Assembly: GCF_029624125.1 (NCBI RefSeq)
Contig: NZ_JARSBN010000009.1
Span: 58,433 to 122,432 of the forward strand
Direction of reading: 5' to 3'
From: Winogradskyella marincola
Lineage (GTDB): Bacteria; Bacteroidota; Bacteroidia; Flavobacteriales; Flavobacteriaceae
DNA: 64,000 nucleotides
The notes beneath the pieces were generated by a model that was given only the letters and a program-made list of their open reading frames with translations, had not been told where the DNA came from and did not search any database. The translations under genes and the position numbers were made by a program. Positions 4,699 through 47,475 of the stretch are shown piece by piece; position 1 is the first letter of the stretch, and the number at the start of each line of letters is the position of its first letter.

Positions 4699-5940
4699 AT
4701 GGCTGTTTTAGACCAATTAACATCGCAAGAAGCGATAGATTTAGAAAACAAGTATGGAGCACATAACTATCATCCATTACCAGTAGTATTGAGTAAAGGT
4801 GAAGGTGTGCATGTATGGGACTTAGAAGGGAAACAATATTACGATTTCTTATCTGCATATTCTGCAGTAAACCAAGGACATTGTCATCCTAAAATTGTTG
4901 GTGCTATGACCAACCAAGCGCAAACGTTAACCCTAACGTCCAGAGCTTTTTATAACGATATGTTAGGTAAGTACGAGAAATTTGCAACCGAGTATTTTGG
5001 TTTTGATAAATTATTACCAATGAATACTGGTGCTGAAGCTGTAGAAACTGCGTTAAAGCTTTGTAGAAAGTGGGCTTATGAAGTAAAAGGTATTGAAGAA
5101 AACGAGGCAGAAATTATAGTTTGCGAAAACAATTTTCATGGCCGTACAACTACTATAATTTCATTTAGTAATGATCCTGTGGCTCGCAAAAACTTTGGAC
5201 CTTATACAAAAGGGTTTATTAAAATAGAATATGACAATTTAGAGGCTTTAGAAACAGCTTTAACAAGCAATAAAAATGTTGCAGGATTTTTAGTAGAACC
5301 TATTCAGGGTGAAGCTGGAGTTTATGTACCGAGCGAAGGCTATTTAGCTAAAGCTAAAGCATTGTGCGAGGCGCATGGTGTGCTTTTTATTGCAGACGAA
5401 GTACAAACTGGCATTGCCAGAACAGGAAAGTTGCTTGCAGTAGATCATGAAAATGTTAAACCTGATATTTTAATTTTAGGTAAAGCACTTTCTGGTGGAG
5501 CATATCCTGTTTCTGCGGTATTGGCAAATGATAATGTAATGAATGTTATAAAGCCAGGTAACCACGGAAGTACTTTTGGAGGTAATCCTGTTGCTGCTGC
5601 TGTTGCTATTGCTGCTTTAGAGGTTGTTAAAGACGAGAGTTTGGCAGAAAACGCAGAGCAATTAGGTCAACTTTTTAGAAGTGAATTAAACAAGTACATC
5701 GAAACAAGTACTATAGCTAAATTGGTAAGAGGAAAAGGATTACTTAATGCTGTAGTTATTAATGATGATGAAGAAAGTGATACAGCTTGGAATATTTGTT
5801 TAAAACTAAGAGACAATGGTTTGTTAGCAAAACCAACTCATGGTAATATTATAAGATTTGCACCGCCTTTAGTAATGAATGAAGATCAGTTGCTAGATTG
5901 TGTGTCTATAATTACAAAAACACTTCAAGAATTTGAATAA
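4699..5940 (+). CDS. rocD: Ornithine aminotransferase
   Basis: A 413-residue PLP-dependent class III aminotransferase converting ornithine and 2-oxoglutarate to glutamate semialdehyde and glutamate. Visible family motifs are [21 protein letters not shown], the Asp in [14 protein letters not shown] and the PLP-lysine in [16 protein letters not shown]. The start [12 protein letters not shown] at 4699 fits the family length. The frame is open 59 codons upstream (to a TTG at 4522), but that stretch has no family similarity and is treated as leader. Single-gene unit ended by the hairpin at 5957-5993. Confidence 0.93.
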
Positions 5941-5956
5941 GAATTTAATGTTTCAA

Positions 5957-5993
5957 TAAAAAAAAACCACGATTTTAAATCGTGGTTTTTTTT
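5957..5993. terminator. Bidirectional terminator between rocD and the CCC-motif gene
   Basis: CCACGATTT (5967-5975) and AAATCGTGG (5977-5985) form an inverted repeat flanked by an A-run on the left and a T-run on the right, so it can end rocD rightward and the gene at 6008 leftward. Confidence 0.85.
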
Positions 5994-6007
5994 AAACTTT
6001 TTTCAGG

Positions 6008-6370
6008 TTATCTACATCCAGCTCTTTCGGCAGCTTCATAAAGCTGTTCAAGACTTTCTTCCGGAATGTTAGGATTGTTTTCAAATAAACCAATGTACCA
6101 ATCAAAGAACTCACACGGATTAACCAATACCCATATTATGAAAGCAAGTCCAATAAAAGAGATAAATAATGATACGATGGCAAATATTTTTGCATTTTTC
6201 ATTGCAGGTCCATTACTATATTCTTCAGGATTAGCGTTATATTTTTTTAGTTCTTGAGTGGCAATTATTATGGCTACAATTGCAGAAATTGTTCCGAGAC
6301 CATAGATACAACAGCATATTATTCCTACTACAGATAAAATATAAACTAATGTTGTGTTGAGTTTTTGCAT
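6008..6370 (-). CDS. CCC-motif membrane protein
   Basis: A 120-residue protein with two hydrophobic segments (about 8-37 and 60-86). The first contains VGIICCCIYGLG, the triple-cysteine signature of a small flavobacterial membrane family, followed by a charged loop ELKKYNANPEEY and a second segment before an acidic tail. Thirteen bases separate it from the upstream DUF2752 gene, and such proteins often sit beside DUF2752 genes. Function unknown; the three adjacent cysteines lie in the membrane segment. Confidence 0.75.
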   Translation of the reverse strand: MQKLNTTLVYILSVVGIICCCIYGLGTISAIVAIIIATQELKKYNANPEEYSNGPAMKNAKIFAIVSLFISFIGLAFIIWVLVNPCEFFDWYIGLFENNPNIPEESLEQLYEAAERAGCR

Positions 6371-6383
6371 GAATTAAATTGAG

Positions 6384-6683
6384 TTAGTTGACAAATAGTT
6401 TTAAAATATAGTTAGTTACAGCAGCTATAAGTATAAGGCTTGCTAATCCAAGTTTTATTTTTTCACTATGCTCTATTTTTTTGAACATATCAAAAATAAG
6501 AAAAACAAAAAACAGTAGCATAGGATAAAGTGCAGGATACATTAAAAATGCATCTAAAAACTGACCTTTTATGAAAAACACAGCAGAGCGTTGCAAACCG
6601 CAACCAATACAGTCAAAGCCAAAGTGTTCTTTTATAACACACGGTAACATGTAATCTTCTATGCTTTTTATAAGTAGAAACAT
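6384..6683 (-). CDS. DUF2752 membrane protein
   Basis: A 99-residue protein with the DUF2752 signature: LPCVIKEHFGFDCIGCGLQRS, a CxxCG-x2-R motif just before the first membrane segment (YPALYPMLLFFVFLIFD), then a second segment (LGLASLILIAAVTNYI). A downstream Met (MLPC, codon 12) is an alternative start. Function of the family is not established. Upstream partner of the CCC-motif gene in a two-gene leftward unit, divergent from the gene at 6773. Confidence 0.8.
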   Translation of the reverse strand: MFLLIKSIEDYMLPCVIKEHFGFDCIGCGLQRSAVFFIKGQFLDAFLMYPALYPMLLFFVFLIFDMFKKIEHSEKIKLGLASLILIAAVTNYILKLFVN

Positions 6684-6772
6684 AAGGCTAAATTAACCAT
6701 TTACAATTATACCATATAATATAAAAATAACTATTGTTTGCCTTACTTTTGCATAAAACTATTTAGTAAAGT

Positions 6773-8566: not shown

Positions 8567-9712
8567 ATGAAGCAAGTGTATTTAGATAATGCGGCTACAA
8601 CAGCCTTACGACCAGAAGTTATAAACCGTATGACAGAAGTGCTTACCAATAGTTATGGTAATGCTTCTTCTACGCATAGTTTTGGACGTTCATCTAAAGC
8701 GTTATTAGAGCAATGTCGTAAAAACATTGCTGGTTATTTTAATGTGTCGGCTTCTGAGATTGTGTTTACTTCAGGTGGTACCGAAGCAGATAATTTAGCT
8801 TTGCGTAGTGCTGTTAGAGATTTAGGAGTTACTGAAATCATTACTTCAAAAATAGAGCATCATGCAGTTTTACATACTGTAGAACAATTACAGCAAGAAT
8901 ACAATGTAAAGCTTAGCTTTGTTGAGTTAGATGAACTAGGCACTGTAAACTATACACATTTAGAGCGCTTATTGAAGAATTCTGAAAAAGCCATCGTAAG
9001 CCTAATGCATGTTAATAATGAAATAGGAAATATTTTAGACATTGAGCATGTGGCTAAGATGTGTAAAGAAAATGATGCTTTGTTTCATTCCGACTGTGTG
9101 CAATCTGTAGGTCATTTTAAGCTAGACTTGCAACAAATTCCAATAGATTTTTTTGCTGCAAGTGCACATAAGTTTCACGGACCAAAAGGTGTTGGTTTTT
9201 GTTTTGTTAGAAAAGAATCTGGATTAAAACCACTGATTTTTGGAGGCGAGCAGGAGAGAGGTCATAGAGCAGGTACAGAGGCTATCCATAATATAGTTGG
9301 TATGGATGAAGCGTTAAAAATAGCCTACACAAATATTGAAGTTGAAGGCGAAAAAATATCTTCAATTAAAACATATTTTATAGACCAAGTAAAAAAGGTT
9401 TTGCCAACCGTAGGTTTTAATGGCGCAAGTGTAGACAATTCAAAAAGCACCTATACTTTAGTTAATGTTTGCTTACCGTTAGATCCATCTAAAGCGGCTA
9501 TGCTTCAATTTCAACTCGACCTTAAAGGTATTGCTTGCTCTAGAGGTAGTGCTTGCCAAAGTGGCAGCAGTCAACAATCTCATGTGCTCACAGAAATTCT
9601 GGATGATGAAAAATTAAAGCATCCTTCGGTACGATTTTCCTTTAGTATTTTTACAACTAAAGAAGAAATAGACTATACAGTTAATGTTTTAAAAGATATT
9701 GTTAATGCTTAA
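8567..9712 (+). CDS. Cysteine desulfurase (NifS/IscS family)
   Basis: A 381-residue PLP enzyme that releases sulfur from cysteine for Fe-S or thio-cofactor synthesis. Visible are the N-terminal VYLDNAATT motif, the PLP-lysine in SAHKFHGPKGVG (K202) and the catalytic cysteine in SRGSACQSG (C330). I choose the ATG at 8567, which puts LDNAATT at the usual position; a TTG six codons upstream is in frame but unnecessary. No scaffold or SUF gene is adjacent, so the acceptor is unknown. Its end overlaps the convergent T9SS gene by 11 bases. Confidence 0.9.
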   Translation: MKQVYLDNAATTALRPEVINRMTEVLTNSYGNASSTHSFGRSSKALLEQCRKNIAGYFNVSASEIVFTSGGTEADNLALRSAVRDLGVTEIITSKIEHHAVLHTVEQLQQEYNVKLSFVELDELGTVNYTHLERLLKNSEKAIVSLMHVNNEIGNILDIEHVAKMCKENDALFHSDCVQSVGHFKLDLQQIPIDFFAASAHKFHGPKGVGFCFVRKESGLKPLIFGGEQERGHRAGTEAIHNIVGMDEALKIAYTNIEVEGEKISSIKTYFIDQVKKVLPTVGFNGASVDNSKSTYTLVNVCLPLDPSKAAMLQFQLDLKGIACSRGSACQSGSSQQSHVLTEILDDEKLKHPSVRFSFSIFTTKEEIDYTVNVLKDIVNA

Positions 9713-11528
9713 TAATAATCTTTTCAGATTTTACAGCATTAGCTTTTGAAGTTACATTAACAATATACACACCATCACTTAAGTTTACCGTTGATAATTG
9801 GTAACGATTAGAAACAGAATCGTATAGTTGATTTAACATTCGTTTACCAGCCACATCAAAAACCTCAATTGTTTTTACATCTAAACCATTAGGATTTAAA
9901 ACAGATAATTGATGAATATCATTATCCTGACGAATGGTTAAATCACTAACATCAAAATCATCTACTCCAAGAGATTGTCCAGGAATAAATACAATTTCAA
10001 AACGGTCAGTGTAATTGCCTGGTTCTACGTTTAAGTCGTAGTCTTGGGTTCTTAAGTCTACGTATAGGTTATTTTCAATATCGTGAATATAAATAGCTTG
10101 GGTATCTTCAAAATTTTGAATATCAAAAATTCTAAAACGTAGTGGTTGTTGTTCTTCAATATTTACAATTAAAGGAATTGTAAGAGCTTCGTCAAAAGCA
10201 TAGGCTTGACAACCGTAAGCCTTATTTTGTAAATCGAAATAAGCATCAGAGTTATAAACCTGAGCAAGTTTTAATTCTAAACCTCTATCATAATCGGGTG
10301 TAGCAGAATCATGAAAATTAAGTACTAGTTGCCTTGTGTATTGGCTTTCACCTACTGTAAAATCAACATTAATCCTGAATCTTTTAAAATCCTCAGGAAC
10401 TAAAGACAAACCGTTGTCTTGATACTCAATTTGGTTATTATTAGACGCAGATTCGTTTTCGCTACTATAGTTGGCCGTTCTGAAGAAGTAACTAGTTGTG
10501 CCATTTTCTTTTACAAATTCTCTCATTGAATTATTAACAGTAACTTCACTATTAGGTCCATTAATACCTTCAACCATGAAACCTTGCCCAACAGGAATAT
10601 ACCTTCCAGCAACTTTTGAGCCTTCAGCCTGAACAGGACCAGGAGGTGGAGTCAAGACAGGAGTTGAGTTGTCTTGAGCGTCGTAAGTAAAAAAGAGCGC
10701 ATAATTAAAAGTCTCATTAGTGCCTGTAGCATCAATTGTGTAAGTAGCATAACCACCAACATAATTTTGTAATACGTGTGACGCTACATTACCATTTTGT
10801 TCCCAATAGAAAAGTGTACCATCAATTTCATTTACATTTGCAGGATCATGAATGAAGTCTCTGGCGTCTATGGCACTTGGATAAGGATTTCCGATTAATG
10901 TAAATTGAGAATCTAATACTGGGTTTGTTATTACTCCATTATTTGGTTTGCCTCTAAAGTCATATATAGTATTACCAGTTGTTGCAGTTCCATGTCCTTT
11001 CATTGTAAAACCTAGGCCTGGATTTAGGTCATTGTTAAATCCAAGATAGATCCATTCAGCATATTGGTCAGAAGCAACAAATGAATATAACCATCTTGTG
11101 GATATAACTAAAGGATCTGCTGTACCTTCGTATGCATTCGTTGGTGTGCTATTACTACTGGCTATAGGATCTGCATCACCAATAAGAGAATCATCTATTA
11201 GATTCACATGGAAAGGATTATTAATGTTACTAGGTAAAATATCTCCAACTGGTGAGCACCAATAATTGTAAGCCCATTGATTAACAGTTCCGTTTTGATA
11301 AACACTCAACTCTCCAACACCAGAATTACCTGTTGTTCCTGAGCCTTGTATTAATTGAGCGTCATCCCTTAAGTAAATTTTAGCTGTTGTTTCTTCAAGA
11401 TTAACATCATCTTCTACAAATAAGACTTGGTCTTTTACAAAAACATACGCATCGTTTCTAACACTAAGTTGAGCTGAGGAAACCATGCTAAAAAATAGCA
11501 ATAGTAACCCAATGAGGGAATTTTTCAT
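9702..11528 (-). CDS. Large T9SS-exported surface protein
   Basis: A 608-residue protein. The signal peptide is residues 1-19 (LIGLLLLFFSMVSSAQ). The body is beta-rich and contains QWAYNYWCSPVGD and FTLIGNPYPSAIDARDFI, segments I have seen in a common family of uncharacterised Bacteroidota secreted proteins. The C-terminal ~70 residues are a type A sorting domain (IEVFDVAGKRMLNQL, LSDGVYIVNVTS, KIIIKH). Single-gene leftward unit. Function unknown; probably cell-surface. Confidence 0.85.
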   Translation of the reverse strand: MKNSLIGLLLLFFSMVSSAQLSVRNDAYVFVKDQVLFVEDDVNLEETTAKIYLRDDAQLIQGSGTTGNSGVGELSVYQNGTVNQWAYNYWCSPVGDILPSNINNPFHVNLIDDSLIGDADPIASSNSTPTNAYEGTADPLVISTRWLYSFVASDQYAEWIYLGFNNDLNPGLGFTMKGHGTATTGNTIYDFRGKPNNGVITNPVLDSQFTLIGNPYPSAIDARDFIHDPANVNEIDGTLFYWEQNGNVASHVLQNYVGGYATYTIDATGTNETFNYALFFTYDAQDNSTPVLTPPPGPVQAEGSKVAGRYIPVGQGFMVEGINGPNSEVTVNNSMREFVKENGTTSYFFRTANYSSENESASNNNQIEYQDNGLSLVPEDFKRFRINVDFTVGESQYTRQLVLNFHDSATPDYDRGLELKLAQVYNSDAYFDLQNKAYGCQAYAFDEALTIPLIVNIEEQQPLRFRIFDIQNFEDTQAIYIHDIENNLYVDLRTQDYDLNVEPGNYTDRFEIVFIPGQSLGVDDFDVSDLTIRQDNDIHQLSVLNPNGLDVKTIEVFDVAGKRMLNQLYDSVSNRYQLSTVNLSDGVYIVNVTSKANAVKSEKIIIKH

Positions 11529-41937: not shown

Positions 41938-42489
41938 ATGAAAAAGCTATTAATTCTTTCCATTTTATCTCTAACTGTATTTTCATCTTGTAGTAGTAAA
42001 GTAGATCTTGCTATAGATAATCCTACAGACGTATCTGTTGAAGTTGTAGTAGATACTTTAAGGGTTTTGGTACCACCAAAGGATGTTGTTTGGGTAGAAA
42101 TGGGACCAGGTGAGCATCAGTTAACCTTAGAGAACGATAGCATAATAAAATATAACTTTACAGAGTCTGTATACATGATAAATCCTTCCTTATCTGAGTA
42201 TTTAGTTGCAGACGAATACTATGGTCCACCAGCTTTTCAAGATTCGTATACTTCTTCTTTACCAAATAAAGAAGTTACGTTTTTGGGTATGACGATTGAA
42301 GGAAACTACAATGTCTTAACAGATGTTATTAATAAGGTTACTTGGGATTACGGTCCAAGAGAAACATTACCAGAAATGGTAGAAGTAGATGCTGATGAGT
42401 CTTATACAACATTGGTTAAAGTTTATGATAGTGTAGAATTTATGAACTTAATGCTTAGTTCTTACAACGACTATTCTGAAGACGAATAA
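41938..42489 (+). CDS. Lipoprotein upstream of speD
   Basis: A 183-residue lipoprotein (signal MKKLLILSILSLTVFSSC, then SSKVDLAIDNPTDVSVEVVVD). The N-terminal half is a beta domain (VVWVEMGPGEHQLTLENDS), and the rest is acidic with several Tyr and Trp. No catalytic motif or family I recognise. It ends 15 bases before the TTG of speD, so the two are probably co-transcribed and it may belong to the polyamine locus. Confidence 0.7.
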   Translation: MKKLLILSILSLTVFSSCSSKVDLAIDNPTDVSVEVVVDTLRVLVPPKDVVWVEMGPGEHQLTLENDSIIKYNFTESVYMINPSLSEYLVADEYYGPPAFQDSYTSSLPNKEVTFLGMTIEGNYNVLTDVINKVTWDYGPRETLPEMVEVDADESYTTLVKVYDSVEFMNLMLSSYNDYSEDE

Positions 42490-42504
42490 ATTCAATCAAT
42501 AATC

Positions 42505-42879
42505 TTGAAAACCTCTCTAGGCACACATATTACTTGGGATGTGTATAACTGTAATGCAGATACACTATCATTTATACCTACTGTAAAAACAGTATTAAAT
42601 GCTATTGTTGAAGAATTACAGCTTACCAAGGTTAATGAGTCATACAAACAGTTTGAGCCCATAGGTGTCACAGGATTTATTCTTTTAGAAGAAAGCCATG
42701 TCAGTATACATTCCTGGCCAGAACATCAATTTGCAGCAGTAGATATTTTTTCTTGCAGACCTTTTGACGCTAAGAAAATTCAAGAATTGTTAATGAAGTC
42801 TTTTAGTTCAGATAAAGTTGTTATTAAGCAGATAGAAAGGGGAGAGGCTATCTCAATAATTTCTGAGGACTTAATTTAA
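42505..42879 (+). CDS. speD: S-adenosylmethionine decarboxylase proenzyme
   Basis: A 124-residue small (class 1b-like) SpeD making decarboxylated SAM, the aminopropyl donor. The autocatalytic cleavage site is Glu63-Ser64 in LEESHVSIHSWPE, with His69 and Cys84 (DIFSCRPF) at the expected processing and catalytic places. The start is a TTG: the frame begins MKTSLGTHITWD there and no ATG precedes the conserved region. Its stop codon abuts that of the convergent gene at 42880 with no base between. Supplies the membrane SpeE-like enzyme at 44911. Confidence 0.92.
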   Translation: MKTSLGTHITWDVYNCNADTLSFIPTVKTVLNAIVEELQLTKVNESYKQFEPIGVTGFILLEESHVSIHSWPEHQFAAVDIFSCRPFDAKKIQELLMKSFSSDKVVIKQIERGEAISIISEDLI

Positions 42880-43149
42880 TTAGGACTTATTTTCAATTTC
42901 TCTGGACAAGCCTTCATCATTTTTACCACATATTCCACAAAAAACAGCTTCATTTTTAGTGTTACCACACCAATTACATCCTTTAGGATTCCTTAATCCA
43001 AAAGATGAAATGATAAAATAGCCAATAAGAGGAGTCGTTACTATGCAAATCAATAAAGCTAAAAAGAAATTAATCTTTCTGTTTTTACTTTCTTGATAGC
43101 ACATTAATACTGTTAATATTATTAATATGACTAGTATTACTTTTAGCAA
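42880..43149 (-). CDS. Small membrane protein with zinc-ribbon-like tail
   Basis: An 89-residue protein: two hydrophobic helices (VILVILIILTVLMCY and FFLALLICIVTTPLIGYFI) then GCNWCGNTKNEAVFCGICGK, two CxxC pairs that look like a short zinc ribbon. It lies 17 bases after the ligase gene and may be the last gene of that leftward unit. No family or function known to me. The CxxCG motif recalls small flavobacterial membrane proteins seen elsewhere. Confidence 0.6.
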   Translation of the reverse strand: MLKVILVILIILTVLMCYQESKNRKINFFLALLICIVTTPLIGYFIISSFGLRNPKGCNWCGNTKNEAVFCGICGKNDEGLSREIENKS

Positions 43150-43166
43150 TCTTAAATTCTTATAAG

Positions 43167-44375
43167 TTAAATAATAAAGTGAGACATAAACTCACAATCA
43201 TCGGTAATAATCTTTGATTCTTGTGTTCTTAAGTTTATGGCAGACGCTCTCGATGTGTAGAACATTCCTATTTGATAAAAATAATCTTCTTCATCTTTGT
43301 TCAATGGATAGAATTTTTGAAATACCATATCCTGATGTCCAAAATCACCTTTAGATTTAGCTTCAGAATTACCCATAGCTTCTATAGATATATTTTCACC
43401 CAAACGACCATAAACAGGTTTTTGTACATAATTGTATAAGCTAGGTTCTTTGTTCAAATACGTTTCAGCCAAAATGTTATTCGGGAAGTTTTGTGTGATA
43501 TAGGCCAAAAACTTTTTATTCTGCCAAATCGCTGTGTATGGTGGATTTAAAACTACAACTTTATCATTTAGAATTAAGTCTGAAAGGATGTGTGCCAATT
43601 CAGGCTCGTCATTAAACATCCAATCCCAAGGAATCATTTTAAAAAGCACATCAACATCTTCATATTCATCACCAATTTGATGAAATACACCTTCATCCGA
43701 AAAAACGACATGCTCTAAGTCTGAATAAAATGGTTTATAGCCAGCTTCGTAAGCTATATCTATAATGCAGTTAACGTTTTCTTTGTCTTCAATATAGCCA
43801 AAGGAAGTTCCCAGAAAAACAGGTTTGTCTTTACCTAAATAAGATTTTAGGTTAGATAAAGCATCTTTTATATCAAACTTTAGAGTATTAAAACTTTGCG
43901 GATTGCCTTTTAATTGTTCTAATTGAAGAGGTTGCCACAATAATGTCTCAGGCAATGTGCTGCATGTGTCTGCATTAAACTCTATAATGCGACCATAATC
44001 AGATTTTAAACCTCCATTAATATCAAAACGACCATAGAGAAAAGGATGTTTGTTCTTGTTCTTCCAGCTATGTTCAATACATTTTTGAAACGATAACGGA
44101 ATACCAAGTTCTCCTAACTTGTGCTCGGCAATGATTTTGTCAGTGGCACGTTGAAATAAATAAAACGCTTCATCAGAAATACGACGTAGTTGCTCTACCT
44201 CTGAACGGTAAATACCAAGTAATTCTTCAGAAAAATAGTCTTCTTCTAAATACCAGTGTAAGCGATGTGGAACGTGTTTCTTTTTAAGACGTTTTATTTC
44301 TTTAAAACGACTATCCTCCAAACGATCTAAACGACTTTCCGCTGCCATATCCTCTAGATGATTTTCCTGGTACAC
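43167..44375 (-). CDS. Glutathionylspermidine synthase-like ATP-grasp ligase
   Basis: A 402-residue ATP-grasp amide ligase of the GSP_synth family (YjfC/YgiC-like), without the amidase domain of E. coli GspSA. Motifs seen: LYGRFDINGG, IIEFNADTCSTLPETLLWQP (Glu/Asn/Asp metal-nucleotide site), VVVLNPPYTAIWQNK and YVQKPVYGRLGENI. Family members ligate polyamines or similar amines to a carboxyl group; the real acceptor of the YjfC type is unknown. Overlaps the 3' end of the lipoprotein gene by 65 bases (38 if the start is the ATG at 44348), so the two are translationally coupled. Confidence 0.88.
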   Translation of the reverse strand: MYQENHLEDMAAESRLDRLEDSRFKEIKRLKKKHVPHRLHWYLEEDYFSEELLGIYRSEVEQLRRISDEAFYLFQRATDKIIAEHKLGELGIPLSFQKCIEHSWKNKNKHPFLYGRFDINGGLKSDYGRIIEFNADTCSTLPETLLWQPLQLEQLKGNPQSFNTLKFDIKDALSNLKSYLGKDKPVFLGTSFGYIEDKENVNCIIDIAYEAGYKPFYSDLEHVVFSDEGVFHQIGDEYEDVDVLFKMIPWDWMFNDEPELAHILSDLILNDKVVVLNPPYTAIWQNKKFLAYITQNFPNNILAETYLNKEPSLYNYVQKPVYGRLGENISIEAMGNSEAKSKGDFGHQDMVFQKFYPLNKDEEDYFYQIGMFYTSRASAINLRTQESKIITDDCEFMSHFII

Positions 44376-44871
44376 TTACTCTTCGAGATGTTGCAGAGCT
44401 TCTTAAATCGTTTTTTAATCCTGTAGATTTATTATAAGCAGAAGCATTTTTGTAGTTACTTTGGTTTGGTGTAACGTTACGTAAACTTCTATTAAAATAA
44501 GAAGCTGCTAATGAGTAGTACAGAATGCTTCTTAAACCCGAATGACGACTGTAAGATGACTCGTCATTTTTCATTTTTCTTAAAGATAATGTATCTGTTG
44601 TTCCCTCTAATGTGTGTACAATAGCAAGAGATTTATCTTTATCATCAATTAAACGCTCGTCGATGATTTTATAATCATTTCCTGGTTCTACTTCTTCAAC
44701 CTCAGTGATAACACCTTGTGTAGATTCGTAAACCGTTTCTTGCTGTGCATCTTTAATGCGTGGACTCGGATCGTCGTCGCCACAACTTTGAAGTGTTAAC
44801 GAGGCAACAACAGCTGCAGTCAACGTTATTTTTTTAGTTAAAGCAAGACCAGTTATAATTTTTTTATTCAT
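44311..44871 (-). CDS. UPF0323-like lipoprotein with Ser/Arg/Gly-rich tail ending in Gly-Gly
   Basis: A 186-residue lipoprotein (signal MNKKIITGLALTKKITLTAA.., lipobox LQSC, Cys 30). An acidic mid region (GVITEVEEVEPGNDYKIIDE) is followed by LRSILYYSLAASYFNRSLRN and a basic Ser/Arg/Gly tail (SSRGYGSGKSFRSFGG) ending in Gly-Gly. The layout matches UPF0323 proteins, which I recall lying beside GspS-like ligases in Campylobacter and Helicobacter. Start set at 44871, as eleven upstream codons would precede the signal peptide. Likely substrate or partner of the overlapping ligase (inference). Confidence 0.75.
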   Translation of the reverse strand: MNKKIITGLALTKKITLTAAVVASLTLQSCGDDDPSPRIKDAQQETVYESTQGVITEVEEVEPGNDYKIIDERLIDDKDKSLAIVHTLEGTTDTLSLRKMKNDESSYSRHSGLRSILYYSLAASYFNRSLRNVTPNQSNYKNASAYNKSTGLKNDLRSSATSRRVSVPGKSSRGYGSGKSFRSFGG

Positions 44872-44910
44872 CTTTGACAGGTTAATTTGCTCAAACATAA
44901 TCAATTTTTA

Positions 44911-46437
44911 ATGAATAAAAAAGCACTAATTCCATTTGCTGTATTTATTGCAGGTTTATGCTCAATCATCTACGAATTATTAATTAGTACTACTGCAACT
45001 TATTTTTTAGGAGATGGTGTAAGACAGTTCTCTATTATTATTGGTGTGTATCTGTTTTCTATGGGAATAGGTGCCTTTTTGTCTAAATTTTTTAAGGACA
45101 AGCCACTCACATTTTTTATCAATGTAGAGTATCTGCTTGGTTTTATTGGAGGTATTTCTGTGCCACTCCTTTACATGCTATTTGTGTACGTGTCTCCAAT
45201 GATATTGCAAATTAGTTGTTTGGCTATCATTTTTGTAATAGGATTACTTACAGGTATGGAAGTGCCATTACTAACCTTTGCTTTAGAGGAGAGTAATATC
45301 AAAAACAACTTATCTAATGTATTGTCGTTAGATTACATTGGAGGACTTATTGCCACCTTAATTTTTCCATTCATCATACTTCCGTTTGTTGGCTTGTACT
45401 ATTCGTCGCTAATTTTCGGAATTGTAAATATTGTCTTAGGTATTCTTTTGAATTATACCTTACTCAAAGACAAAAAACGAAACAGCATTTTTGGCTTTTT
45501 GGCCGTTATTGCTTTGGTCGTTTTAGTGTTGTTTGGCGGTAAGCTCTTAAAGGTTTGGGATCAGAAAATTTACAAGCGTCCTATTGTATTGAATGAGCAA
45601 ACACCATATCAAAAAATTGTAATGACCAAAACACAAGGAGATGTTAGGTTGTACCTTAATAGAGTGATACAATTTTCATCTTCAGATGAGCATCGTTACC
45701 ATGAGTCTTTGGTACATATTCCTCTAGCGATGCATTACAATCCAAAGCGTGTTTTAATTCTTGGTGGAGGCGAAAATTTAGCGAGTAGAGAAGTTTTAAA
45801 GCATAGTTCTGTGCAGCGTGTTGATGTTGTAGATATTGATAGTACCATGTTTTATCTGGCAAAAGAGAATAAATATCTAAAGGATATTAACGCAGATGCT
45901 GCAAAAAATGAAAAAGTAAATCTTATACCAGAAGATGCGTTTACTTATCTTTTTAATAATACTGAAAAGTACGATGTAATCATTGCAGATTTGCCAGACC
46001 CAACCAATCAGGCTTTGGCAAGATTGTACAGCAAGCAGTTTTTTTTAATGGCGAAGCGAAACCTTAAAAAGGATGGTGTTTTTGTAACACAATCTGGCGA
46101 AATCTATTTCTCAAATAAAGTCTTTAGTTGTATCAACAATACCTTGGCATCAGTTTTTGAAGACGTACAACCATATCACACGTATATACCATCGTTTGGA
46201 GATTGGGGATTTATTATCGCCAGACATGAAGGAAACGACAGTAAAGTAGATACTAAAGCTTTGCCTGAAGATTTAAAATATCTCAACCCAAACCAAATAG
46301 AACAAGCCTTTATTTTTCCTAAGGATATTGCTATTGCAGACACAAAACAGAATACTTTAGATAACCCAATTATCCTTAACTATTTCTTAGACGAATGGGA
46401 AAAATGGAAAGTAGATTTTGAAGCTGGGACGAAGTAA
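44911..46437 (+). CDS. speE: Membrane-anchored spermidine synthase-like aminopropyltransferase
   Basis: A 508-residue protein. Residues 1-~215 form about seven membrane helices (FAVFIAGLCSIIYELLIS and following). The C-terminal ~270 residues are a polyamine aminopropyltransferase: VLILGGGENLASREVLKH (SAM loop; the canonical GGGDGG is changed), VDVVDIDSTMFYLAKEN, EDAFTYLF and IIADLPDPTNQALARLYSKQFF (active-site Asp). It transfers aminopropyl from decarboxylated SAM to an amine; the amine is unknown. Start set at the ATG 39 bases from the divergent lipoprotein start. Pairs functionally with speD nearby. Confidence 0.88.
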   Translation: MNKKALIPFAVFIAGLCSIIYELLISTTATYFLGDGVRQFSIIIGVYLFSMGIGAFLSKFFKDKPLTFFINVEYLLGFIGGISVPLLYMLFVYVSPMILQISCLAIIFVIGLLTGMEVPLLTFALEESNIKNNLSNVLSLDYIGGLIATLIFPFIILPFVGLYYSSLIFGIVNIVLGILLNYTLLKDKKRNSIFGFLAVIALVVLVLFGGKLLKVWDQKIYKRPIVLNEQTPYQKIVMTKTQGDVRLYLNRVIQFSSSDEHRYHESLVHIPLAMHYNPKRVLILGGGENLASREVLKHSSVQRVDVVDIDSTMFYLAKENKYLKDINADAAKNEKVNLIPEDAFTYLFNNTEKYDVIIADLPDPTNQALARLYSKQFFLMAKRNLKKDGVFVTQSGEIYFSNKVFSCINNTLASVFEDVQPYHTYIPSFGDWGFIIARHEGNDSKVDTKALPEDLKYLNPNQIEQAFIFPKDIAIADTKQNTLDNPIILNYFLDEWEKWKVDFEAGTK

Positions 46438-46446
46438 TTAATTTTT

Positions 46447-46695
46447 ATGAAGAATAGAGAATTATGTTTTCAATTTAAATCCAAGTTTTTAAATCTAAGT
46501 TATGAAGATGAGATAACTGATATTCTGATGGACTTTGCTCTAGACAATAAAGTGTCAGTAGGAGGGAATTTAGATACAGGGTTTTGTTTTTGTGTTGATA
46601 TTGATAATGAGATTCCAATTAATCTAAAAAGTAATTTTATCAACTTTATGTCTAAAAGTTACACACAATTATTTGATGAAATAATATTTAAATAA
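46447..46695 (+). CDS. Small hypothetical protein after the speE-like gene
   Basis: An 82-residue soluble protein with four Cys-free ends and a central GGNLDTGFCFCVDID. No signal or membrane segment. It starts 9 bases after speE and shares its terminator, so it is probably co-transcribed. I recognise no family. A local role with the polyamine enzymes is only positional. Confidence 0.55.
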   Translation: MKNRELCFQFKSKFLNLSYEDEITDILMDFALDNKVSVGGNLDTGFCFCVDIDNEIPINLKSNFINFMSKSYTQLFDEIIFK

Positions 46696-46749: not shown

Positions 46750-47475
46750 CTAGTTGCTAACGCTACCAGAGCCTGTTACTTTAGTGTCTTTGTTGGTTGG
46801 GTTTCCTGAGTATTTTACATCACCAGAGCCTGTAATTCTTACTTTAAGTTCACCATTACAAACTACATTAGCACCACCAGAACCAGTAATTTTAGCAGTA
46901 ACATTAGTACTGTCTAAATCGCTACCATCAAAATCTCCAGACCCTGTTATTTTTGTAGTCAAATCTGTGGTAGAACCACTTAACTCAATGTCACCTGATC
47001 CAGAAATACTACTTTCAACTGAGTTAGAGCTAATATTTAAATTGATGTCGCCAGATCCTGCAATGGATACATCAAAATGATCTGATTTAATAGTGCCAGA
47101 GTTTTCAATATCACCAGAGCCAGCTAAGGATACAGAGTTAATAGATTCATAAGGAATTGTTACTACGATTGTTTTAGAAGGTCTAAGATTAACACCATCT
47201 TCAACTTTTACAACAAGTTTACCTCCTTCAACTTTGGTAACGATGTGTTCCATAAGGTTAGAATCACCTTCAATGGTAATGTTTCCTTCTTTGCCTTGTA
47301 CCAGCTTAAAGTTCATTGGTCCAGCAGATTTTAAGCCATCATAGTCTCCTGTAGATCTGTTTTCTGTAGTAATGTTTCCGTTGCCTTTAACTTTTTCTGA
47401 TTTTCCCCATTGCGCACAAGATGTTGTAACACTAAAAAGAAAAACTACTAACGTAATTGATTTTAATAATTTCAT
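46750..47475 (-). CDS. Head-GIN (DUF2807) secreted beta-helix protein
   Basis: A 241-residue exported protein (signal ends TTSCAQWG). The mature part is a DUF2807/head-GIN domain: seven repeats around Ser/Thr-Gly-Ser-Gly (SLAGSGDIE, SIAGSGDIN, SISGSGDIE, KITGSGDFD, KITGSGGAN, RITGSGDVK, KVTGSGSVS) spaced ~20 residues, forming right-handed helix rungs. No catalytic residues; such proteins are thought to act as surface adhesins or sensors. Last gene of the sigma-factor operon, with 37 bases to the gene upstream. Confidence 0.88.
   Translation of the reverse strand: MKLLKSITLVVFLFSVTTSCAQWGKSEKVKGNGNITTENRSTGDYDGLKSAGPMNFKLVQGKEGNITIEGDSNLMEHIVTKVEGGKLVVKVEDGVNLRPSKTIVVTIPYESINSVSLAGSGDIENSGTIKSDHFDVSIAGSGDINLNISSNSVESSISGSGDIELSGSTTDLTTKITGSGDFDGSDLDSTNVTAKITGSGGANVVCNGELKVRITGSGDVKYSGNPTNKDTKVTGSGSVSN

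Follow-up and report, generated by a model that had tools for sequence, protein, structure and literature searches.

The stretch analysed here (called the window) is a 64,000-nucleotide piece of contig NZ_JARSBN010000009.1 of Winogradskyella marincola. It carries a module of four core genes: speD, a seven-transmembrane (7-TM) SpeE fusion, an ATP-grasp ligase, and a lipoprotein with a Ser/Arg/Gly tail. We consider it rather probable that this module puts a polyamine on the C-terminus of the envelope lipoprotein. The ligase chemistry is already known in kind from the E. coli peptide-spermidine ligases YgiC and YjfC. What is new is that the ligase-tail pair is united with a dedicated SpeD and a Glu-type 7-TM SpeE. 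The features, with positions in the window, are as follows.

41938-42489, plus strand: second lipoprotein (lipoprotein #2), 183 residues, acidic C-terminus, a conserved neighbour of speD.
42505-42879, plus strand: speD, Bacillus-type S-adenosylmethionine (AdoMet) decarboxylase, 124 residues (PF02675, E=7.5e-32; TIGR03330).
43167-44375, minus strand: putative ATP-grasp peptide-polyamine ligase of the YgiC/YjfC kind, 402 residues (PF03738, E=4.3e-68).
44311-44871, minus strand: UPF0323-related lipoprotein, 186 residues, the proposed acceptor, with lipobox LQSC and a tail reading ...SSRGYGSGKSFRSFGG.
44314-44352, minus strand: C-terminal tail of that lipoprotein, GYGSGKSFRSFGG, its Gly-Gly being the proposed acceptor end on the basis of terminus conservation.
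44911-46437, plus strand: 7-TM aminopropyltransferase (SpeE fusion), 508 residues (NF002956, 552.1 bits; structure model).
45763-45777, plus strand: GGGEN motif of the 7-TM SpeE, with Glu where the aligned ligase-less relatives have Asp.

An initial annotation, made from the sequence alone, had named the four core genes, and family models and open reading frames (ORFs) agree that they are real. SpeD matches AdoMet_dc (PF02675) and scores 107.7 bits against TIGR03330 (cut-off 75.65); SpeE exceeds the NF002956 cut-off of 472 and matches Spermine_synth at E=8.7e-45; and the ligase matches GSP_synth (PF03738) in the Pfam scan. No Pfam family matched the tail lipoprotein, and neither a Pfam nor an NCBIfam family matched the 183-residue lipoprotein. 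The overlap of lipoprotein and ligase genes and the Gly-Gly end of the tail, both described in that annotation, are seen in the sequence; the overlap is about 65 nt if the ligase starts at the GTG at 44375. The 7-TM SpeE and tail lipoprotein genes are divergent, with 39 bp between the chosen start codons.

The four genes are present or absent together. Sixty genomes were searched with ligase, SpeE, SpeD and lipoprotein queries (match threshold E up to 0.001), 37 from the same genus, counting the 3.5 Mb host genome itself, and 23 from outside it. All four core genes occur in 10 of the 37 same-genus genomes, and the remaining 27 have none of the four; completeness is 94% or more for 24 of these. 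This is more than chance, and the co-occurrence anticipated for ligase, lipoprotein and membrane SpeE is borne out, with SpeD included, in the identical ten genomes. Gene order and the lipoprotein-ligase overlap are kept across nine congener loci; the ligase of Winogradskyella sp. SP247 is 98% identical to that of the window. At the sites read in four module-less congeners the module genes are missing, and in one of them (L204) the flanking MFS-type gene and the gene for a 241-residue protein (window 46750-47475) lie 45 bp apart. Homologues of the 183-residue lipoprotein stand at the modules of Winogradskyella, Maribacter, Cellulophaga and Aquimarina, and none of the ORFs at the four empty sites corresponds to it. 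In the 23 genomes outside the genus there was one distant ligase (G019), SpeD with SpeE in six genomes, and the lipoprotein in none. Ligase matches are scarce nearby, in 14 of 246 order-level and 18 of 395 phylum-level genomes.

A further pattern lies at the very end of the lipoprotein. All 15 clade members read end in Gly-Gly (the window and 14 named loci; the L121 row does not differ from that of the window, and L127, a near copy with the same tail, was left out). Those from outside Flavobacteriaceae are 28-37% identical to the window's lipoprotein in this alignment and nonetheless keep the Gly-Gly. A wider set comprised 116 ligase loci: 77 named loci with a ligase ORF (80 fetched), 37 with G handles and two from E. 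coli. Some genomes occur twice, and tails were reduced to distinct ones before counting. Partners were picked because their last 30 residues are rich in Gly, Ser and Arg or because they resemble such proteins; they were found at 103 loci and not at 13. The 88 distinct tails (last 25 residues) end in Gly (51), Ser (29), Ala (6), Leu (1) or Lys (1). The conservation on which the initial annotation had staked its reading therefore holds, strictly as Gly-Gly within the clade and as a small residue in 86 of the 88 wider-family tails. The two exceptions are L057, where the wrong ORF was picked and the correct listed neighbour ends GGRGFGG, and L141 (Campylobacter showae), whose partner tail reads in a different frame and ends RRIK, unlike its relatives.

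A Gly-Gly end is found in 49 of the 88 tails, against a mean of 4.6 and a maximum of 12 in 2000 shuffles; for Gly, Ser or Ala ends the shuffle mean is 46 and the maximum 61. Among 1045 other ORFs of the ligase loci, 17% end in one of these three residues and five end Gly-Gly, and none of the 126 lipobox-like ones does. When the partner was chosen by position only, 60 of 69 ended in Gly, Ser or Ala and 39 in Gly-Gly (8 of the 77 named loci had no upstream ORF). These figures bear on the idea that the tail is a non-covalent element binding polyanions, metals or polyamines, with small end residues that reflect protease resistance or composition. Such a role would suit a low-complexity Ser/Arg/Gly sequence and the mean net charge of +8.2 over the partners' last 60 residues, whereas composition falls far short of the Gly-Gly ends seen (4.6 against 49) and of the small ends seen (46 against 86), and the ligase gene adjoins. 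We regard it as improbable.

In the structure model of the lipoprotein the core (residues around 45-165) is confident, and the last 16 residues have pLDDT values of 46-47, as expected for a tail that may be free. A PDB search with this model gave no match at E up to 0.001. The description of the protein as UPF0323-like stands as distant homology but not as a family match by a single-sequence model. Profile-profile comparison relates it to the Campylobacter partners (probability 98.7, E=4e-16) and to Spirosoma/Dyadobacter-type partners (99.9%, E=2.5e-31), whereas against NF003146 (PRK04081), which we take to be UPF0323, it scores 17.8 bits, under the cut-off of 194. Tat export of the partner was not adopted as an explanation; by eye, the twin Arg is present in Hymenobacter and not in relatives.

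The ligase is the only one of its kind found in the genome. PF03738 spans residues 41-401 of 402, with no further Pfam family at E up to 1, and it therefore has no fused amidase domain of the kind carried by glutathionylspermidine synthetase (Gss); against NF007801 there is a partial match of 83 bits (cut-off 882). Fifteen positions that we take to be the Gss synthetase active site were compared (the letter expected at position 537 was wrong), and nine are identical in all seven aligned sequences: R116, D118, E132, N134, E196, K287, K319, R324 and R383 of the window ligase. Differences include Thr for S335 and Asp for E392. The relatives of solved structure are YgiC (7uk8, 7uka) and YjfC (7uk6, 7uk7), whose E-values in the PDB search arise by construction, the search alignment having contained both. 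RefSeq names both 'peptide--spermidine ligase', reportedly on the strength of a paper by Pederick from 2023, and Iyer et al. are said to have predicted peptide modification by such ligases in 2009. In the portion of the literature covered, the phrase 'bacterial peptidylpolyamine synthetases' is used for such enzymes. We propose from these resemblances that the ligase may join a peptide to a polyamine using ATP, in the style of YgiC and YjfC.

The module resembles the E. coli pairs ygiB-ygiC and yjfM-yjfC in ligase family and active-site residues, and in having beside the ligase a Ser/Arg/Gly-tailed lipoprotein with a small last residue (YgiB ends SRSMGG, YjfM ends RGHWGG). It differs from them in that SpeD and SpeE are not beside ygiBC or yjfMC, speDE being elsewhere; the E. 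coli ligases are 23-24% identical to the window ligase, and YgiB belongs to Pfam DUF1190, whereas the window lipoprotein matches no Pfam family. In Campylobacter a homologous lipoprotein, presumably of the Cj0371 type of UPF0323, is likewise followed by a ligase (29-34% identity), and its tails end GG or GS in all loci but L141; there, unlike in the module, SpeD and SpeE were not found. A paper on C. jejuni Cj0371 (PMC6104132) uses none of the words polyamine, spermidine and lipoprotein.

The same family raises an alternative, in which the product of the ligase is a free small-molecule conjugate, glutathionylspermidine or some comparable amide, with the lipoprotein acting merely as a sensor or carrier and its tail end serving, for example, export or binding. 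PF03738 does include Gss, and the nine active-site residues are the same. Conservation, however, extends right up to the free C-terminus, and a sensor would have no need of that; at 86 of the 116 loci a protein with a Gly/Ser/Arg tail is encoded on the ligase strand, no more than 900 bp upstream of the ligase; and YgiC is without Gss activity according to a paper citing Sui 2012. Such a free product seems unlikely, and a plain glutathionylspermidine synthase is ruled out by the missing amidase domain together with the conserved tail.

In a ligase tree, 13 SpeE-linked ligases and three unlinked ones (L132, L148, L149) form one supported 16-row clade. The linkage label changes twice, against a shuffled mean of 12.4, the program warning of long branches there; the SpeE-linked L136 was left out for its short ligase ORF.

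The SpeE of the module is a 7-TM aminopropyltransferase, exceeding the NF002956 cut-off and having seven transmembrane helices ahead of the SpeE domain. Its structure model (mean pLDDT 86.8) shows seven membrane helices and then an aminopropyltransferase fold, with best structural matches to a Thermus polyamine aminopropyltransferase and a plant thermospermine synthase. Hydropathy gives seven segments in 12 of 16 relatives, or 8 of 9 at a laxer threshold, and five or six in the rest, one of which is cut short at its start. Summed over eight SpeEs, the N-terminus and loops 2, 4 and 6 contain 84 Lys/Arg and loops 1, 3 and 5 contain nine. By the positive-inside rule, the N-terminus is therefore predicted to be inside and the SpeE domain outside, in the periplasm, which is the compartment of the lipoprotein tail; the initial annotation had left this placement out of account.

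The GGG(D/E) motif has Glu in all 19 ligase-linked SpeEs and Asp in all 17 aligned unlinked ones (15 bacterial and two haloarchaeal; two carry GAGD). PMC11107197 places Glu at the motif in thermospermine synthases, two exceptions aside, and states that such motifs fail to separate spermidine from aminopropylagmatine synthases. For this reason the Glu is a hint of a different acceptor, short of proof. One genome (L206) has in a single region two diverged 7-TM SpeE genes (5174-6715 and 9303-10844), one with GAGD and one with GGGD. The PADLOC mad2 model matches residues 272-422 of the window SpeE at 58.7 bits, probably a fold-level similarity, and viral-contig matches to SpeE are mostly to the SpeE domain alone.

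It could be argued that SpeD and SpeE make free spermidine (or thermospermine) for general use and that the ligase is adjacent as an operon of convenience. The genome's only SpeD and only strong SpeE match found are in the module (a second SpeE match elsewhere, at 41 bits, is over the Pfam cut-off but far under NCBIfam aminopropyltransferase cut-offs), and the structural matches of SpeE include the Thermus and plant enzymes. Against this, SpeD and SpeE are missing from 27 of the 37 same-genus genomes jointly with the ligase and lipoprotein, and the Glu/Asp division of the motif follows linkage to the ligase. Another contig carries adjoining genes for an agmatinase (TIGR01230, above cut-off) and for SpeA-like and DHS-like proteins, the latter two under their NCBIfam equivalog cut-offs, which we read as a possible homospermidine route; nspC had no match in the genome. 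Given this likely route elsewhere, SpeD and SpeE look dedicated, and the cell probably does not draw its general polyamine supply from the module, which fits with 27 congeners lacking it. The 7-TM SpeE fusion was reportedly found by Li et al. in 2019 not to make spermidine, and such fusions are said not to complement a spermidine synthase deletion. General supply thus has little probability in our judgement.

We return to conjugation of the lipoprotein tail, for which we infer the bond, the donor, the order of steps and the role. The cytoplasmic ATP-grasp ligase would use ATP to activate the carboxylate of the C-terminal Gly on the exposed tail and couple it to a polyamine through a primary amine. 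SpeD would produce decarboxylated AdoMet, and the 7-TM SpeE would add aminopropyl units to the amine, whether it is still free, ahead of ligation, or already bound to the tail. As the initial annotation had cautioned with regard to export, no signal peptide is seen on the ligase. The lipoprotein would be exported and lipidated, giving the envelope a basic, flexible tail roughly 18 residues long with a polycation at its end. The earlier interpretation of the tail as a conjugation site is thus partly supported. It is backed as far as comparative genomics can go: the genes, their shared pattern of occurrence, the conserved tail and terminus, the active-site residues and the low model confidence of the tail are all established directly, and the conjugation itself is putative.

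Several observations weigh against this reading. SpeD and SpeE also occur in six other order-level genomes that have neither this ligase nor this lipoprotein (for two of the six, the SpeE match spans the SpeE domain alone). Of the 60 named ligase loci that extend 3 kb or more on each side, 53 lack both linked speD and linked speE, so SpeE is not required for the ligase in general. The ligases L132, L148 and L149 fall within the SpeE clade and have no SpeE in the locus. Beyond the clade the last residue is Ser in 29 of the 88 tails and Ala in six, which rules out Gly-Gly as a universal rule. Finally, the 18 residues after TM7 hold 21 Lys/Arg, which partly opposes the periplasmic topology, and the route of decarboxylated AdoMet to a periplasmic SpeE domain lacks an explanation.

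The relatives of the 7-TM SpeE that have no ligase nearby were also examined. The bacterial clusters scored contain DUF4178 and/or DUF350 genes (DUF350 by BLAST only in L219; L221 by likeness to L227; L228 and L229 were outside the scan). In all 14 loci scored, from nine genera, an anchored protein beside these genes ends in Lys. In four order-level relatives this is a Ser/Arg/Gly-tailed lipoprotein ending SGGFGK or GSGFGK, and in Alteromonas the protein ends GPSSGK. Elsewhere it is a tiny anchored protein of about 47-78 residues (starts by eye): Novosphingobium (GPSHK/GPTHK), Gemmatirosa (RHGK), Tritonibacter (NRVK), Ensifer (PESGK) and Burkholderia (GSHK). In L227 (Novosphingobium sp. ES2-1), RefSeq annotates a 48-residue gene with the Lys end between DUF4178 and DUF350. 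The Lys-ending proteins with coordinates are:

L206: 11761-12459.
L207: 4839-5615.
L208: 3095-3823.
L209: 8656-9393.
L224: 10195-11727.
L227: 4629-4775, at the RefSeq-annotated place.

The other scored loci are L219-L223, L225, L228 and L229; L210 (contig edge) and L226 (partial SpeE) were unscored. The proteins of L206-L209, L222 and L224 came from scans imposing no Lys requirement, and those of L219-L221, L223 and L225 from reading three frames by eye; for L228 and L229, counted as orthologues of L222, the pattern required a [GHS]K end. Background C-terminal Lys among ORFs of at least 150 residues in these loci is 8/42, 1/11 and 6/94, counts that include the longer Lys proteins themselves. 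Neither of two haloarchaeal SpeE loci has the Lys end, which speaks against a universal Lys rule. Those two loci (L230, 4164-4874; L231, 3975-4667) encode a lipobox-like protein whose Gly/Ser/Arg stretch is internal rather than terminal, and L231 has an annotated DUF2617. Nothing new came from searching plasmids with DUF350 and with two Lys-tail lipoproteins.

With its aminobutyl amine, the side chain of Lys amounts to half of putrescine, which is the usual acceptor of the SpeE fold. Because the anchored proteins end in Lys and its side chain resembles this half, the pattern suggests that the orphan 7-TM SpeE enzymes may aminopropylate protein tails directly. We put forward, as a tentative extension, that the 7-TM SpeE might be a tail aminopropyltransferase at the outer face of the inner membrane. 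In DUF4178/DUF350 clusters the acceptor would be the side chain of the C-terminal Lys on the small anchored protein; in the ligase type, the ligase would first supply a tail-bound amine on the C-terminal Gly, which the Glu-type SpeE would then extend. Both routes would finish as an envelope protein tail capped by a polyamine.

Operons joining the 7-TM SpeE with AdoMet decarboxylase, DUF350 and DUF4178 share NF002956 with the module (two scanned), and several have SpeD. They are unlike it in showing no ligase, another anchored protein (with the Lys end) and Asp in the motif. Among the eight locus proteins covered by the general family scan (the rest of the genome lay outside it) there is no DUF350 or DUF4178, and the locus is thus not a DUF350/DUF4178 polyamine operon of the PSP-associated kind. 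Ravi et al. (2024; PMC11237479) describe operons in which PspA-type genes stand together with the ligase, DUF350 and a DUF1190 lipoprotein. Variants of these include AdoMet decarboxylase, an association that by their account Li et al. (2019) had noticed too. They separately describe operons of 7-TM SpeE with DUF350, DUF4178 and a lipoprotein, and they mention aminopropylation of other substrates. In the literature covered, which includes little of the subscription literature, neither a cluster combining 7-TM SpeE with the ligase nor a conserved C-terminal Lys or Gly acceptor was met, and the Gly-tail idea may well be in print. A parallel to the proposed bond is SUMO/ubiquitin-spermidine conjugation (PMC12270671), where a C-terminal Gly-Gly carboxylate is joined to spermidine, but by eukaryotic E1/E2 chemistry with enzymes unrelated to those of the module.

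The initial annotation also placed two small membrane proteins or lipoproteins at the flanks of the set. The upstream one (41938-42489, plus strand) is indeed a lipoprotein conserved by speD, but the downstream 82-residue ORF (46447-46695) has neither a lipobox nor a hydrophobic stretch that we could see; the observation taken as a whole is confirmed in part. This ORF and an 89-residue ORF with one transmembrane segment (42880-43149) were rejected as parts of the module, both being missing from the gene lists of the nine congener loci. These two gaps are variable spots, with differing small genes or none across congeners; the contents include a lipoprotein-like protein, a 182-residue protein that looks HNH/NUMOD-like by eye, and others.

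The absence of the module from most same-genus genomes searched makes clean gene-removal tests conceivable. If the proposal is true, the module would be a dedicated bacterial system for capping envelope lipoproteins with C-terminal polyamines, a modification that to our knowledge is hardly known in bacteria. It would tie together two unsolved questions, the natural peptide substrate of the YgiC/YjfC ligases and the natural acceptor of the 7-TM SpeE fusions, and each family would gain a short and concrete candidate substrate: a tail ending in Gly-Gly or a tail ending in Lys.

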